Positions 5,891 to 53,593 of a DNA stretch of 64,000 nucleotides are shown piece by piece; the stretch's first letter is position 1, and the number at the start of each line of letters is the position of its first letter. This stretch comes from Chloroflexota bacterium. Lineage in GTDB: Bacteria > Chloroflexota > Dehalococcoidia > UBA2979. The notes below the pieces were generated by a model. The model was given only the letters and a program-made list of their open reading frames with translations. It made no database searches and was not told the origin of the DNA. The stretch spans positions 40,343 to 104,342 of the forward strand of contig CANKAU010000006.1 of assembly GCA_947479915.1 (NCBI GenBank), in the 5' to 3' direction. Position numbers and translations under genes: made by a program.

Positions 5891-6307
5891 TTGGCGTACA
5901 ACAAGCCGATCCCCGACCCGGAGCAGTACATCAACAAGCCGTTCTGGGACGGCTGCAAAGAGGGGAAGCTCATGCTTCCTCGTTGCCTCACCTGCAACCG
6001 GGTCCACTTCTTCCCGCGCGTGATCTGCCCGCACTGCCAGTCCGACGCCCTTGAATGGGTCGAGGCGAGCGGCGAGGGCTACATCCACACGTTCGCGGTG
6101 CAGCACCGAGCCTTCGGCGGCTGGGCGGAGGAGACCCCCTTCGTCACGGCGTTCATCGACCTGAAGGAGGGCGACCGCATGTTGACCGTCCTCCGCGGCG
6201 TCGACCCGCTGAAGCCGGAGTCCATCAAGATCGGCGCGAAGGTGAAGATCGAGTTCGAGGCTGCCTCGGACGACGTCTCGATCCCCTTCTGGCGCGTGGT
6301 CGAATAA
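5891..6307 (+). CDS. DUF35 family (zinc ribbon plus OB-fold) acyl-CoA-associated protein
   Basis: CLTCNRVHFFPRVICPHCQSD zinc ribbon followed by OB-fold-like sequence; directly precedes a thiolase. Confidence 0.88.
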   Translation: MAYNKPIPDPEQYINKPFWDGCKEGKLMLPRCLTCNRVHFFPRVICPHCQSDALEWVEASGEGYIHTFAVQHRAFGGWAEETPFVTAFIDLKEGDRMLTVLRGVDPLKPESIKIGAKVKIEFEAASDDVSIPFWRVVE

Positions 6308-47051: not shown

Positions 47052-47849
47052 ATGAGCGCGGCCATCGATATTCCCACGCTGCCCGTCGCGCAAATTCGGG
47101 CGATGTCCCTGATCGCCAACCCCTCGCCGTCGTTCGAAGAGCTGGGGTCGGTCGTGGACGCCGACCCGGCGCTGACCGCCGCCCTGCTGCGCGCTGCCAA
47201 CTCGGCAGCCTCGTCTCCGGTGGACCGCGTCCGCACCGCGCGCATCGCGATGGTGCGCATCGGCGCGTCCGAGACACGACGGCTGGTGATGAGCATCGCG
47301 CTGTCGCAGTCGTTCGGCAGCATCGCCGAGTCCGGCATCGACGAGGCGGAGATGTGGCGGCACCTGATCGCCACGGGTGTCCTTGCGGATGCCACGGCGT
47401 GGGGCGACGTGCGCCACAGCGAGGCGTTCACGGCCGGGCTGCTGCACGACCTCGGCCGCCTCGCCATGGCGGCGCAGGATCCGCAGCGCTACGGAAAGGT
47501 CGTGACGCTGGTGCATCGCGGCGTCCCGGCGATCGATGCGGAGCGCACGGTGTTCGGCATGAACCACTGCCAGTGGGGCGAGTCCATCGGCCGCGCGTGG
47601 GGATTCCCCTCGGAAATCGTGGACGCGATCGGCGAGCACCACGTCGGCTCCCAGCACGGGCTCTCGTGGATCGTGACACGCGCCCGCGAGCTGGCCGCCT
47701 CCCTCGGCATCGGCGATGGGCTGACGCCGCCCGAGCCTCCCGAGCCCGGCTCGGAGGCCGCCCTGCTCCCGGTCGTCGAGCATCTCGGCGGCGAGGAAGC
47801 GGTGATGCAGCGCGTGGAGTGGTACAGCGGCGCGTTCCGCGCGGCCTAG
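47052..47849 (+). CDS. HDOD domain-containing protein
   Basis: VVDADPALTAALLRAANSAASSPVDRVRTARIAMVRIGASETRRLVMSIAL...GLLHDLGRLAM. Confidence 0.9.
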   Translation: MSAAIDIPTLPVAQIRAMSLIANPSPSFEELGSVVDADPALTAALLRAANSAASSPVDRVRTARIAMVRIGASETRRLVMSIALSQSFGSIAESGIDEAEMWRHLIATGVLADATAWGDVRHSEAFTAGLLHDLGRLAMAAQDPQRYGKVVTLVHRGVPAIDAERTVFGMNHCQWGESIGRAWGFPSEIVDAIGEHHVGSQHGLSWIVTRARELAASLGIGDGLTPPEPPEPGSEAALLPVVEHLGGEEAVMQRVEWYSGAFRAA

Positions 47850-48087
47850 CCCGTCAGACCCACCGCCCCCGGCCATATGCGCCGCGATGCTGCCGCATCG
47901 CGCGTGTGATGTGGTTTGCGCGCGCCACTCCTGTCGATTCTGACCCTGTTCTGACTCCCCGCATCTTTACCTGAAACCACTATTCAGACTTCTCCGACTC
48001 TGACGAATCCTGAATGGAGAGGGAACGCAGCGCGCGCCCTTCCAGCAATCGTCAGCCCGCGACGCCGCGAAAAGTCAGGACGACACC

Positions 48088-49659
48088 TTGGCCGCAACGA
48101 CCAGCCTTGCCGAGCACCTCAACATCGACCGCCGCGACCTCGACGTGCGCCTCCGCTGGGTGCAGTTCGGCGAACGTGACTCCGAGCTCATCCGCGCCGC
48201 CGCCGTGCACCTGCGCCCCGCCTCCGCGGACATCGCCCGCGAGTTCTACGACCATTCGTTCAAGTTCCCGGAGTTCGCGAAGAAGGTCGAGGACTCCAAC
48301 TCCACCCGCGCGCGCCTGGAGAAGGCGCAGGAGGGCTACTTCCTCAGCCTGATCGAAGGCGTCGTCGACGAGCGCTACCTCGAGGGGCGCCTGCACATCG
48401 GCAAGGTCCACGCCGTGCTCGGCATCGAGCCGCGCTGGAACATCGGCAACTACGGCACGTATGCCCAGTTGATCTTCCCGCGCCTCGCGCCGCACTTCGA
48501 CTCCGCGACGCTCTCCGAGACGATGGTCGCGTTCCAGAAGCTGTTCATGTTCGACGTCACGCTCGCCATCGAGGCGTACATCGCGTTCGGCATGATGGCG
48601 CGCATGCAGGAGGTCACCGGCGCGCTGCTCGCCAGCACGGACCTGCTCTCGCTGTCCTCGGGCGAGGTCGAGACGGCCTCCCGCGAGATCGCCCAGGCGA
48701 TCGAGCAGATCGCCCGCGGCGCCGTGGAGCAGACCGAGAACGCGGGCCTGATCCGCGACGAGGTTGGCCAGGTGCAGGACTCCGCCGGCCGCGTAGCCGA
48801 GCAGGCCCAGCAGCAGGCCGAGGCCCTCGGCGGCGCCATCGCGCGCTCCCGCGAGACCGCCGGTGTGTCGCGCGGCGCGACCGAGGCTGCGACCAGCGGC
48901 ATGGAAAGCGTGGAGCAGACCATCGCCGCGATGGACTCGATCACCGCCACTGTGTCGCAGACCTCTTCGCAGCTCGAGAGCCTGAGCGCGCGCGGATCCG
49001 AGATCGGGACGATCACGAAGACGATCTCCGAGATCGCCGACCAGACCAACCTCCTGGCGCTCAACGCGGCCATCGAGGCCGCGCGGGCCGGTGACGCCGG
49101 TCGCGGCTTCGCGGTCGTCGCTGCCGAGGTCCGGAGCCTGGCCGAGCGTGCCTCGAACGCCGCGAAGGACATCGCCAAGCTGATCGAGGACGTGCGTCGC
49201 GGCATGGACGCGAGCGCGGGCTCGATGCGCTCCGCCGTGGAACGCGTGAACGAGGGCACCCTCCGCGCCCGCGAAACGGGCGAGGTCCTGGGCCGGCTGG
49301 TCGAGGTGAACCGCCGCGTGAGTGCCGAGATGGGTGGCACCGAGAACGGTGACGGCGGCCTGACCGGTGTGCTGGAGCAGGTCGGCGTGCTCGCGGAGCA
49401 GACGCAGGAGCTGGCGACGGGCATGCGCGAGCTGACCGCCTCGGCGGCCGTCCGCGCCGCCTCCGCCGGCGCCGCCGCCGAGGAGAGCGCCGCCTCCGCC
49501 GAGGAGGTCTCCGCTTCCTCCGAGGAGGTCAGCGCGCAGACGGGCGAGGTGGCCAGCCAGGCAGACCAGCTCCGCTCGCTCGCGGTGCAGCTCCGCTCCT
49601 TCATCGAATCGCTCGGCTTCACCGTCGAGGAGTCGAAGGAGACCCGCCGGGCAGCCTAG
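48088..49659 (+). CDS. Globin-coupled methyl-accepting chemotaxis protein (HemAT-like, soluble)
   Basis: N-terminal protoglobin ([31 protein letters not shown]), C-terminal MCP hairpin ([41 protein letters not shown]); no TM segment. Confidence 0.93.
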
Positions 49660-49688
49660 CCAGCGCCCCGTGCGGAGCAATGAATCAG

Positions 49689-49714
49689 GAGAGGCGGCCT
49701 CGCGGCCGCCTCTC
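49689..49714. terminator. Intrinsic terminator-like hairpin
   Basis: GAGAGGCGGCC-tcgc-GGCCGCCTCTC, 11-bp perfect stem. Confidence 0.85.
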
Positions 49715-49741
49715 TGTGCATCTGACAGCGAATCGAACGGG

Positions 49742-50311
49742 CTACGAGCGCCCTCGACGTCGCAGGCCGAGCCACGCGAGCACGGCGGCCGCGACGCTTC
49801 CGGCGACGGCGATCTGCACAAGGCGTGCCGCCCCGCCCTCGGGCTCCTCGCGCGGCGGCAGGCCGAGGCGCGCGCGCAGGCCCTGCTCGCCCCAGCGCAT
49901 GATGACGTCGTGGTTCCACGCGAACACCGCGCCCGCGATCGGCCCGGCGAGGTTCATCCACCACTCGGTCGTCGAGACATCCCACTCGTAGCGGATTGAT
50001 GTGCCCTCGGCGGTGGGAACGAGGAACCAACGCCCTCGGCCGACGAGTTGGCCGGACGCGTCGCCGAACAGTCGCCCCGGCCGATCCACGAGCGTCGATC
50101 GCACATCGAACGTGAGCGTGTACGGGAGCAGGCTGCGGAACGTGAAGCGACGAACCTCGCCCACGCCCTGCTCGTCCCCCGCCGTCACCGCCTCAACGTG
50201 CGTGACGCCGCGCCACCACTCCGGCCACGCGAGCGAGTCGAGGATCACCTCGAAGACGCCCTCGATCGGTGCCTCGATGTTCCAGTTCGTGACGAAGTGG
50301 TACTGCTTCAT
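49742..50311 (-). CDS. SRPBCC family protein
   Basis: YHFVTNWNIEAPIEGVFEVILDSLAWPEWWRGVTHVEAV (START-like fold); C-terminal TM and RRRGRS. Confidence 0.88.
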   Translation of the reverse strand: MKQYHFVTNWNIEAPIEGVFEVILDSLAWPEWWRGVTHVEAVTAGDEQGVGEVRRFTFRSLLPYTLTFDVRSTLVDRPGRLFGDASGQLVGRGRWFLVPTAEGTSIRYEWDVSTTEWWMNLAGPIAGAVFAWNHDVIMRWGEQGLRARLGLPPREEPEGGAARLVQIAVAGSVAAAVLAWLGLRRRGRS

Positions 50312-50367
50312 CCGCGTGCCTCCGTGATCACCGCCCCCACCACGGTAGCGCGCGCGTCACGAACGCA

Positions 50368-50395
50368 GCGGGGCGGACATCGCTGCCCGCCCCGC
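50368..50395. terminator. Terminator-like hairpin downstream of PCuAC gene
   Basis: GCGGGGCGG-N10-CCGCCCCGC, 9-bp stem. Confidence 0.55.
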
Positions 50396-50418
50396 CGTCC
50401 ACTCGCGAGCGACCGAGG

Positions 50419-51069
50419 CTAGCGCATCGCGCCGCTGCCTCCGGTGGCGCCCATAGCGCCCGATCCGCCCGTGGCGCCCGTCGCGGCGGAGCCGCCCATC
50501 GCCCCCCCGGGTGCGTTCTTCACCTCGACCTTGCTCTCGATCGTCGATCCGCTCTGGAGCTTCAGGGTGACCGTGAAGGTGTCGCCGACCTTGAGCTGCT
50601 TCGCGATGCCCAGCAGCATGATGTGGTTCCCGCCCGGCTCGAGCTTCACGGTCCCGGATGCCGGGAGGTCGTAGCCCTCGACCTGCACCATCTTCATGAC
50701 GCCTGCCTCCTGCACGGTGGTGTGCAGCTCGACACGCTTGGCGATCGCCGCGGGAACCGAGGCGCTGACGACACGTTCGGCCTTCGCGCCCTTGTTCTGC
50801 AGCACGGCGTACACCGCGCTGTTCTCATCGGGCAGTCCAGGCGTGGCGCGTGCCCATACGTCACTCATGGTGACCGACGGGCCGACAGGCGTCGGGGTCG
50901 CGGTCGGCGAGGCGCTCGCCGCCGGGTTGTGGTTCGTCTGCGGCGTGCCCGTCGGCGTCGCAGTGGGTGCCGCCGCGCTGCCGCATGCGGTCGCTGCGAG
51001 GCCCACCGCGATCACGGTCATCCCCACGGCGAATCGGCGCGAGATGCGCACCGGGATCATCTGGTTCAT
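50419..51069 (-). CDS. Copper chaperone PCu(A)C family lipoprotein with Gly/Ala/Met-rich tail
   Basis: Lipobox ..LAATACGS; VWARATPGLPDENSAVYAVLQNKG...RVELHTTVQEAGVMKMVQVEGYDLPASGTVKLEPGGNHIMLLGI (H-x-M motif). Confidence 0.93.
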   Translation of the reverse strand: MNQMIPVRISRRFAVGMTVIAVGLAATACGSAAAPTATPTGTPQTNHNPAASASPTATPTPVGPSVTMSDVWARATPGLPDENSAVYAVLQNKGAKAERVVSASVPAAIAKRVELHTTVQEAGVMKMVQVEGYDLPASGTVKLEPGGNHIMLLGIAKQLKVGDTFTVTLKLQSGSTIESKVEVKNAPGGAMGGSAATGATGGSGAMGATGGSGAMR

Positions 51070-51686
51070 CAACGCTTCCTTTCGTTCGCGACGCTCTTCA
51101 GGTCGCGGGCGATCTGCTCTGGTTCCAGGGCGTGCGGCATCTGCAGCCGCAGCAGCCCGTCTCGGTTCAGGACGTACGAGGTAGCCGGGTGCGTGACGGT
51201 GTATCCGCCATCCGCGTTCGGCGTGCTGCACTCAGGACTGATGCCCCACTCCCGCAGCGCGGCCAGCACCTGCTCCGTGCTCCCGGACACGCCGATAAAC
51301 GACGGGTCGAAGTAGTGGACGTACTGGGACATCAGCTCCGGCGTGTCACGCGCCGGATCGGCGGTGATCATCACAACCTTCACATCGTCCTTCAGGACGT
51401 CCGGCAGTTGCTGATGCGCTGCCGCGAGATGCCCCATGGTCAGCGGGCAGATGTCCGGGCAGTGGGTGTAGCCCACATAGACCACGACCACGTGCCCTTT
51501 CAGATCGCTGAGCTGGAACGGTCGATTCCCCTCGGCGACCAGTTGAAACGCGGGCAGCGGCGCCGGCGGGTTCACCCGCTTGGACGCGACGCGTTCCGGG
51601 GCGGCACAGCCGATTGCCAACGCCATCGAGATCGCGACCGCCATGAGCAGCGCGCCCCGGCGCAGGCCGAGTGCTCCTCGAATCAT
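51069..51686 (-). CDS. SCO1/SenC family copper/redox protein
   Basis: VVVVYVGYTHCPDICPLTMGHLAAAHQQL. Confidence 0.94.
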   Translation of the reverse strand: MIRGALGLRRGALLMAVAISMALAIGCAAPERVASKRVNPPAPLPAFQLVAEGNRPFQLSDLKGHVVVVYVGYTHCPDICPLTMGHLAAAHQQLPDVLKDDVKVVMITADPARDTPELMSQYVHYFDPSFIGVSGSTEQVLAALREWGISPECSTPNADGGYTVTHPATSYVLNRDGLLRLQMPHALEPEQIARDLKSVANERKR

Positions 51687-51726
51687 CTCAAGTCTCCTCT
51701 CGTCTCCCGTGTGCGGGTGGCGAGAG

Positions 51727-52119
51727 TCAGCGAGGCGGCGGCGGCTCGGGGACGAGTGGCGAGGCGTCTACGCCCACCGTGCGAGGGATCCCGACGAGCG
51801 CGGGGAGCAACGGCGGAATGACGATCAAGACGGCGCGGTGAACGGGCAGCGCCGGCGCGCCCAGCAGATCCCCCGCCGTGAACCCAACGTCAGCGAGCGG
51901 TGCGTGGCCGGGCGCGCTCGCAGCCCTCGAGGTGTCGAGATCCCACGGATGCGTGTGGGCCCCCACGACGCCGTGCGCAGAAGCGTGCCCGTGATCGGGC
52001 AGCCATCCCCAGAGGTTGGCGCCGACCATTGGCGCGAGGCTCGGCGCCAGCAACGCCGCCATCACGGCCAGCGTCGCCAGACGATGCGCACGCGAGGGGG
52101 CTCGATGTAGTGCGTTCAC
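51727..52119 (-). CDS. Hypothetical His-rich secreted/membrane protein linked to copper genes
   Basis: Signal-like N-terminus (LATLAVMAALLAPSLAPMVGA) and DHGHASAHGVVGAHTHPWD. Confidence 0.55.
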   Translation of the reverse strand: MNALHRAPSRAHRLATLAVMAALLAPSLAPMVGANLWGWLPDHGHASAHGVVGAHTHPWDLDTSRAASAPGHAPLADVGFTAGDLLGAPALPVHRAVLIVIPPLLPALVGIPRTVGVDASPLVPEPPPPR

Positions 52120-52259
52120 ACCTCAATCGTGGCGCGCGGCGTGACACGGCACACGCGCCGAACGTCCCACGACCACCGGGACTCGTCGAACTACGCGCTC
52201 ATTTCCGAGGCGCTAGGATCGCCTCGCGCCCCGACGGGCGCCGCGCGAGAGGAGTGACG

Positions 52260-52655
52260 GTGGACCTCGAGGAACGACGCAGCCAGGGCGAGGCGGCTCG
52301 GCGCCGCGTCTTGGGCGATGAGTATGTCGATCGGTCTGCAGCGAACCGCACGAACCTGAACGGCGAATGGATCGACCAGGTCACTGGCAGCGTCTGGCAC
52401 GACGTGTGGACGCGCCCGCACTTCGACGACCGCACGCGTCGCATCCTGGTCATCGGCACGATGATCGCGCTCGCGAAGTGGGAGGAGTTCTCGCTGCACG
52501 TGCGCGCCGCGCTGACGGGCGGCGGCTTCACGCAGGACGACGTGAAGGAGATCATCCTGCAGCAGAGCGCCTACTGCGGCGTGCCCGCCGGCAACCAGGC
52601 GCTGCGCTGTGCCGCAGAGGTCATCGCCGACCTCGGACGCATCCAGGGGCGATAG
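52260..52655 (+). CDS. Carboxymuconolactone decarboxylase-family protein
   Basis: RRRVLGDEYVDRSAAN...FDDRTRRILVIGTMIALAKWEEFSLHVRAALTGGGFTQDDVKEIILQQSAYCGVPAGNQAL. Confidence 0.9.
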   Translation: MDLEERRSQGEAARRRVLGDEYVDRSAANRTNLNGEWIDQVTGSVWHDVWTRPHFDDRTRRILVIGTMIALAKWEEFSLHVRAALTGGGFTQDDVKEIILQQSAYCGVPAGNQALRCAAEVIADLGRIQGR

Positions 52656-52669
52656 CCGCGGGACGAGAG

Positions 52670-52719
52670 TGGAGCGGGGAACGGGATTCGAACCCGCGGC
52701 ATCCTGTTTGGAAGGCAGG
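52670..52719 (-). repeat. tRNA-Gly 3'-end fragment (att-like duplication)
   Basis: 50 bp matching the intact tRNA-Gly 3' half (53519..53568) with one mismatch (cctgTttgg vs cctgCttgg); lacks the 5' half. Confidence 0.9.
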
Positions 52720-52798
52720 AACCGCCCAGTCACGCCTCGCCTGTGTACGCCCCTCGCAGATTCATAAGCGAAGGACTTCGAGGGGCGCTCACCACGCG

Positions 52799-52837
52799 CC
52801 GCCAATTTCCCGCCATAGTTTGGCGGGAAATTGGCGG
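52799..52837. repeat. Perfect inverted repeat / hairpin
   Basis: CCGCCAATTTCCCGCCA-tagtt-TGGCGGGAAATTGGCGG, 17-bp arms. Confidence 0.95.
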
Positions 52838-52952
52838 GAGAATCACGCCTCCCGCGCGCGTCGTCCGCCCTGGAGGACGGTCCCGCCACAACTTGTCCAC
52901 AGGCTCGGCTTGCCCCAGAAGCACGTCACTCGCCGGTGCTAGAGTCCGGCGC

Positions 52953-53411
52953 ATGAAGCGCCTCATCGCCCTCATGCTCATCGCCTTGCTTGCCTCCGCG
53001 TGCGACGCAACTACAGGTGCGCCACTCAGTACCGTCACGCGGGAGGATGTGCCGAAGGCATCTCCTACCTCGAACGCGACGACTACCCCGCCGCCGCCGC
53101 CGCGTCTGTGCGACAACTCGGTCGATGCCACCCCTTACCCGATAACGCTAACGCCGGGGGCACCGCGCCCGGGGCAGACCGTCGCGCTAGTAGGCTCGGG
53201 GCTAGAGCCCGGCACCTACGAAATCTGGGCCGGTTACCCACAGTCCGATGTGGGTACGGTTCAGGCTGCCGTGAAGGTGGGCGACGATGGCCTGGTGGCG
53301 ACGACATTCAAGTTCGATGGCCCACGACCCGGTGAGTGCATCGTCGTGCTGGTTTGGGATCAATCCGCCTTTTGGCCCCGCTACCGCGCGAAACCATTTC
53401 GGGCTCCCTAG
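52953..53411 (+). CDS. Hypothetical lipoprotein
   Basis: MKRLIALMLIALLASACDATTG... lipobox, T/P-rich linker, then beta-rich YPITLTPGAPRPGQTVALVGSGLEPGTYEIWAG. Confidence 0.7.
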   Translation: MKRLIALMLIALLASACDATTGAPLSTVTREDVPKASPTSNATTTPPPPPRLCDNSVDATPYPITLTPGAPRPGQTVALVGSGLEPGTYEIWAGYPQSDVGTVQAAVKVGDDGLVATTFKFDGPRPGECIVVLVWDQSAFWPRYRAKPFRAP

Positions 53412-53518
53412 CAGCCTGGAGTCACTCGCGGCGCGCAGTTTGGCGGGAGACGCGCTCTGCGGGCTCGACCACCGGGAGGGTCAGATCCCGGATCGCCAGT
53501 AATGGAGCGGGATTCTGA

Positions 53519-53593
53519 TGGAGCGGGGAACGGGATTCGAACCCGCGGCATCCTGCTTGGAAGGCAGGCGCTCTACCACTGAGCTATCCCCGC
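53519..53593 (-). tRNA. tRNA-Gly (TCC)
   Basis: Reverse strand GCGGGGATAGCTCAGTGGTAGAGCGCCTGCCTTCCAAGCAGGATGCCGCGGGTTCGAATCCCGTTCCCCGCTCCA; loop CTTCCAA. Confidence 0.96.

Follow-up and report, generated by a model that had tools for sequence, protein, structure and literature searches.

An 849-bp integrase-less insert between att-like repeats at a tRNA-Gly gene, with candidate arm-type sites at both ends

In the window analysed here (the whole stretch of 64,000 nt from a contig of a Dehalococcoidia genome, hereafter G000), the 3' part of a tRNA-Gly(TCC) gene occurs twice, and the two copies enclose a short insert with only one convincing gene. We interpret this insert as a non-autonomous att-flanked integrated element, similar to a CIME (cis-mobilizable element), which would be excisable only in trans, and we give this reading a probability of about 0.72. 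It is a very small addition to a known kind of att-flanked islands devoid of an integrase; what is new here is the presence of TTGGCGGGA repeats at both insert ends. The source assembly is a draft of 67 contigs and 2.32 Mb.

The tRNA-Gly repeat and the DNA between its copies

The features of the locus are the following:
52260-52655, plus strand: CMD-family gene, convergent with the tRNA gene (PF02627, E = 1.4e-12); 14 bp lie between its stop codon and the displaced copy
52670-52719, minus strand: displaced tRNA 3' part, putative second att core copy (49/50 identity, spacing 849)
52720-53518, no strand: insert between the core copies (799 bp, or 849 bp if one of them is included)
52940-52945, plus strand: TAGAGT, possible -10 element of a putative leaderless promoter before the lipoprotein ATG
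52953-53411, plus strand: gene of a 152-aa lipoprotein, the only convincing gene in the insert
53519-53568, minus strand: 3' part of tRNA-Gly, putative att core copy
53519-53593, minus strand: intact tRNA-Gly(TCC) with encoded CCA (ARAGORN; Rfam tRNA, 77 bits)

A repeat of 50 bp made of the tRNA-Gly 3' half, with its copies 849 bp apart and one mismatch, had been described in the original prediction; the direct repeat is real (52670-52719 and 53519-53568, 49 of 50 positions identical), but the strand had to be corrected: the tRNA gene occupies the right end of the interval and is read from the minus strand, which makes the copy at 52670 the displaced one, located 3' of the tRNA. ARAGORN finds a single intact tRNA-Gly(TCC) at the locus, not two, in agreement with Rfam, and the only other RNA families observed there were weak matches below the cut-off. 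The repeat starts at the exact 5' edge of the anticodon stem (CCTGC-CTTCCAA-G/ACAGG) and ends with the encoded CCA; the sole mismatch between the core copies falls in the anticodon stem, adjoining the loop. The next best ungapped match of the 50-mer in the window, on both strands, reaches just 28/50, which excludes a chance origin of the repeat. The locus shows two traits of islands inserted into tRNA genes by tyrosine integrases, namely an intact tRNA with a displaced 3' fragment in direct orientation and an att core bounded by the anticodon arm; this geometry of insertion at tRNA 3' ends is established (PMC4383910, PMC8371274). The compact junction between the stop codon of the CMD gene and the displaced copy suggests that the latter is the original chromosomal 3' end of the tRNA. 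A third, partial copy of the tRNA 3' end, the 13-nt TGGAGCGGGATTC (53503-53515), which consists of GAATCCC and GCTCCA with 7 nt missing, sits 3 bp past the CCA of tRNA-Gly.

Between the core copies, the integrase profile gave no match in the six frames to an integrase or to a remnant of it, and no trace of a phage gene was seen; thus, the statement that the interval holds no integrase, but only a lipoprotein (52953-53411) and hairpins, was confirmed. An integrase of its own, as expected inside a tRNA island, an IME or an autonomous mini-island, is not present, and the lipoprotein ORF stands alone, with neither integration nor transfer genes, as in a CIME; judged from sequence only, the insert is also flanked by attL and attR. 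It is a single copy in its own genome, where no other copy of 52720-53518 was found, and no homologues were detected in phage DNA, in plasmid DNA or in 44 genomes of the family. Its GC content of 65.6% is on the low side, yet within the spread of the window.

The lipoprotein has relatives with 30-39% identity in 8 of 60 genomes, some of them of the same genus, and two paralogues in its own genome are counted among these; none of the relatives fetched had a tRNA nearby. No match was obtained against Pfam, NCBIfam and PHROGs, nor in the search of genome_contigs, and the AlphaFold2 model built without an alignment was unusable (pLDDT 39); that the product is a predicted exported lipoprotein is the only safe statement on it. 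The stretch 52931-52964, with the TAGAGT before the ATG, is 93-94% identical over 29-32 nt in three other genomes of the family. The third-position GC of the gene is 0.725 versus 0.79-0.94 in the neighbouring genes tested. Since the lipoprotein has relatives in the lineage and the GC lies within the spread of the window, the cargo gene probably comes from the same lineage.

Arm-like repeats at the insert ends and in other genomes

Two hairpins and two candidate arm-type sites were recognised in the insert:
52743-52792, no strand: second hairpin, imperfect, with 17-nt arms
52799-52837, no strand: perfect inverted repeat of 17 bp containing arm-like repeats (longest in 100 shuffles, 10 bp)
52820-52839, plus strand: distal pair of exact TTGGCGGGA copies (11-nt period), candidate arm-type sites of an integrase
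53437-53448, plus strand: single AGTTTGGCGGGA, candidate arm-type site on the tRNA side, a 12-mer in common with 52817-52828

The three exact copies of TTGGCGGGA in the insert (the third at 53440-53448) are the sole three in the 64-kb window, and the 12-mer common to both 130-nt insert ends was equalled in 2 of 500 shuffles. The hairpins of the original prediction are present, but their content was understated, because the main hairpin is made of arm-like repeats. When the insert ends are joined, the core falls between the single site, about 70 bp off, and the pair, about 100 bp off, a layout that would be that of a lambda-type attP. The TTGGCGGGA repeats at both ends fit candidate arm-type sites of an integrase, and at least these candidate cis-acting sites have survived in the insert.

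The arm motif, searched exactly and with one mismatch in 60 relatives and 44 genomes of the family, occurred in the own genome only. On a wider scale, 393 genomes of the class were scanned with the 20-mer of the window, allowing at most 2 mismatches and using the reversed motif as control: nine genomes, including the own one, were found against one for the control. In G311 and G072, at most 150 bp separate the motif from the 3' end of an intact tRNA, and in the former it comes directly after the end of an integrase gene; in G118 and G017 it is near a tRNA fragment or half. A scan with a degenerate motif reached ten genomes against three control matches and added G162, in which the motif is located between an integrase domain and the 3' end of tRNA-Lys, and G102, in which it is 21 bp upstream of tRNA-SeC. 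In four of these ten genomes the motif lies within 150 bp of an intact tRNA, with a chance of about 1e-6 if 48 tRNA genes per 2.2 Mb are assumed, a figure that is optimistic because the degenerate pattern was picked after the first scan. The integrases of G311 and G162 are 404-439 aa long and combine PF00589 and PF14659.

Two further contigs of the class deserve mention. In L188 of G017 (contig C43), the first 46 nt of a tRNA-Met, identical to the tRNA-Met of the window, are joined at about 6090-6140 to non-tRNA sequence, and a TCCCGCCAA pair near this broken gene marks a possible att site; in L186 of G072 (contig C44, 3098-3240), a contig without integrase, a tRNA-Phe is followed 46 bp on by TTGCCGCCAATTTGCCGCCAA.

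Among viral contigs, the gapped motif mostly matched coding repeats (KAPAK-type), but it was adjacent to integrases in L053, L090 and L101 versus none of 41 for the reversed control. In the phage contig L053 it flanks, directly before the integrase gene, a stretch resembling, in our reading, the 3' end of tRNA-Leu. A pattern scan of all bacteria gave 30 matches, about the chance level, three of them at tRNAs or tRNA halves (L210, L212 and L218), where no integrase was detected. As the exact matches in all bacteria are mostly coding or due to chance, little weight can be given to the motif by itself where no tRNA is near.

The tRNA-Gly locus in congeners and the search for a helper integrase

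The following gene served as marker of the neighbourhood:
47052-47849, plus strand: HDOD-like gene, with counterparts of 65-78% identity 3' of tRNA-Gly in G001-G004

In four congeners (G001-G004) the neighbourhood is kept, with the HDOD gene, which we take to be such by recognition, facing tRNA-Gly; beside it, on the 3' side of tRNA-Gly(TCC), the four congeners carry what is presumably, again by recognition, a FAD-linked oxidase. The G000 insert is absent from this syntenic locus in all four, and none of its repeats was found within 1 kb of their tRNA-Gly. Of these congeners, G002 comes closest to an empty site, with 649 bp between HDOD and tRNA-Gly; the corresponding distances are 1.57 kb (G004) and 3.2 kb (G003). 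The order in G001 is a partial HDOD match, then after about 390 bp a displaced tRNA copy, a 2.0-kb insert and the tRNA; this insert differs from that of G000 and contains a transporter-like ORF. In G000 itself, 4.8 kb separate HDOD from the displaced copy, after which the 849-bp unit follows. The 4.8-kb interval (47850-52669) includes chemotaxis-receptor-like, Sco-like and CMD genes, among others; since the congeners do not have it here, it may represent an earlier insertion at this position; its far edge yielded no tRNA fragment.

Genus-wide, the region 3' of this tRNA-Gly gene is a plastic spot. A 1.8-kb insert at tRNA-Gly(TCC) of G018 contains the N-terminal piece of an integrase and a toxin-antitoxin-like pair, and tRNA-Gly(CCC) of G004 is followed by two tandem islands of 5.0 and 1.8 kb, each with an intact PF00589 integrase; the names of the G018 integrase piece and of the toxin-antitoxin genes in both genomes are those that we presume by recognition. 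The 1.8-kb unit of G004 (L013, contig C93, 8600-10501) lies between two copies of the tRNA-Gly(CCC) 3' end, encodes only a tyrosine integrase and a HicA/HicB-like pair, and looks like a minimal autonomous island. Taken together, the anticodon-loop anatomy of the att site, the absence of the insert in four congeners and the other inserts, with displaced copies, at this or a sibling tRNA-Gly gene in G001, G018 and G004 bear out the attL/attR arrangement that had been proposed, and conservation of the interval in relatives, which would have spoken against it, was not observed.

Integrases targeting tRNA-Gly, envisaged in the original prediction, do exist in intact form at tRNA-Gly(CCC) of G004, but none has TTGGCGGGA repeats, and neither the own genome nor the relatives yielded a helper integrase whose repeats match. 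Two integrases of the own genome were considered and rejected: one near tRNA-Arg, which lies 5' of its tRNA and is devoid of the motif, and one near a tmRNA-like 3' end, which has related yet different repeats (TTGGCGGTCA/TAGGCGGTCA, 12-nt period). The latter is found at the end of contig C19 (L058, 5500-6194), where the tmRNA-like 3' end is followed by a partial integrase gene with these repeats; this probably represents a further island, located at ssrA and truncated where the contig ends. As the insert lacks an integrase and none with matching repeats occurs in the own genome or in relatives, its movement today would need an outside helper. A TTGGCGGGAAATTGGCGGGA pair beside a tRNA-Gly 3' end and an integrase gene, if met elsewhere, would name this helper.

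Origin of the insert and relation to known systems

A tyrosine integrase, absent from what remains, would have put the insert, or a larger ancestor of it, into the 3' end of tRNA-Gly(TCC), with the crossover in the anticodon loop; the incoming copy would have restored the 3' part of the tRNA, and the original 3' end would now lie 849 bp away. Since candidate arm sites remain on both sides of the core, a helper integrase specific for TTGGCGGGA could in principle excise the insert, leaving a single tRNA-Gly followed by CTCTCGTCCCGCGG. The reading as a CIME-like element is supported by the repeat running from the anticodon stem to the CCA, by the empty-like site in G002 and the different inserts in G001 and others, by the confinement of TTGGCGGGA to the insert ends, and by motifs of this type near integrase genes or tRNA 3' ends in G311, G162 and L053. 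Against it stand the lack of a helper with matching repeats, the partly post hoc choice of the degenerate motif, the draft state of the assembly and the mostly chance nature of exact motif matches outside the class Dehalococcoidia.

How the insert reached its present size may be explained in two ways, and our confidences in these overlap with that in the CIME-like reading because both are possible origins of it. A larger autonomous island or prophage at tRNA-Gly might have been reduced by internal deletion, with loss of its integrase and cargo, to a dead one-gene scar; this explanation, not fully exclusive of the preferred one, is a serious candidate to which we give slightly less than even odds. 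In fact, CIMEs have been described as products of such decay (PMC5704250), the G018 insert with only the N-terminal piece of an integrase represents an intermediate, and the failure to find a helper points in the same direction; on the other hand, no trace of an integrase or phage gene is left, and random deletion need not have spared the arm-like repeats and the core, which are nearly intact. Alternatively, the insert could have been mobilised at its 849-bp size, as an att-flanked one-gene cassette, by the integrase of another element. We consider this rather unlikely, and collapse from a larger island at least as likely: the compact layout, in which one intact gene is combined with the core and with arm-like repeats at either end, and the occurrence of the motif at tRNAs without a visible integrase in G072, G118 and G017 would agree with it, but the insert is a single copy with no second instance in 44 family genomes and no helper, and G072 and G118 are represented by short contigs from which integrases may simply be missing. 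Even more doubtful is the generalisation that the insert belongs to a class of sub-kilobase one-gene tRNA cassettes of Dehalococcoidia, never with their own integrase, which would be moved in trans by PF00589 + PF14659 integrases at paired TTGGCGG arm sites as a site-specific counterpart of MITEs.

An assembly chimera joined across the 50-bp repeat, conceivable in a 67-contig draft in which the repeat is close to the k-mer length, seems highly improbable, as the insert GC is within the window range, the lipoprotein and its upstream region have relatives in the same lineage, and the arm-like repeats are located where an att site predicts them. Finally, the partial copy in the same orientation might recall an ancient tandem duplication of the tRNA whose second copy has decayed. 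This explanation can be rejected, because the 25 nt preceding the displaced copy agree with the 5' half of the tRNA at 7/25, a chance value, versus 98% identity for the 3' part, the boundaries are those of an att site and the insert is absent in congeners.

The CIME-like insert illustrates the small size at which an att-flanked insertion can still have the cis sites expected for site-specific recombination, and inserts of this kind escape island finders that depend on an integrase gene. Located near tRNA 3' ends in several Dehalococcoidia, the paired TTGNCGG(G/C)A repeat with an 11-nt period offers a sequence handle by which islands devoid of an integrase may be recognised and the integrase able to move them predicted.

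CIMEs are defined as cis-mobilizable elements that originate by decay of integrated elements to att-flanked remnants (PMC5704250), and the ssrA islands of Dehalococcoides without integration module are att-flanked, use serine recombinases, are larger and often occur in tandem (PMC3146451). The insert resembles both in being integrated, with att copies derived from the 3' end of an RNA gene and without integration or transfer genes, in the same class; it differs from the ssrA islands in its location at tRNA-Gly, in its tyrosine-integrase site at the anticodon loop, in its length of 849 bp and in its single gene. With the tRNA islands of the Islander database it shares the regenerated tRNA and the displaced 3' fragment at the ends and an anticodon-centred site; Islander requires an integrase gene, which the insert does not have, and its lengths peak at 13.6 and 39.9 kb (PMC4383910). 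The tRNA-Gly(CCC) islands of G004 (L013) are similar in the small size of the 1.8-kb unit and in having displaced copies of the tRNA-Gly 3' end that begin close to the anticodon loop, but they have intact integrases and no TTGGCGGGA repeats. Like MITEs, the insert is short and without a recombinase, and the enzyme would come in trans; unlike them, it is site-specific at a tRNA gene, is bordered by target-derived direct repeats, with no terminal inverted repeats noted, occurs as a single copy and carries a gene.
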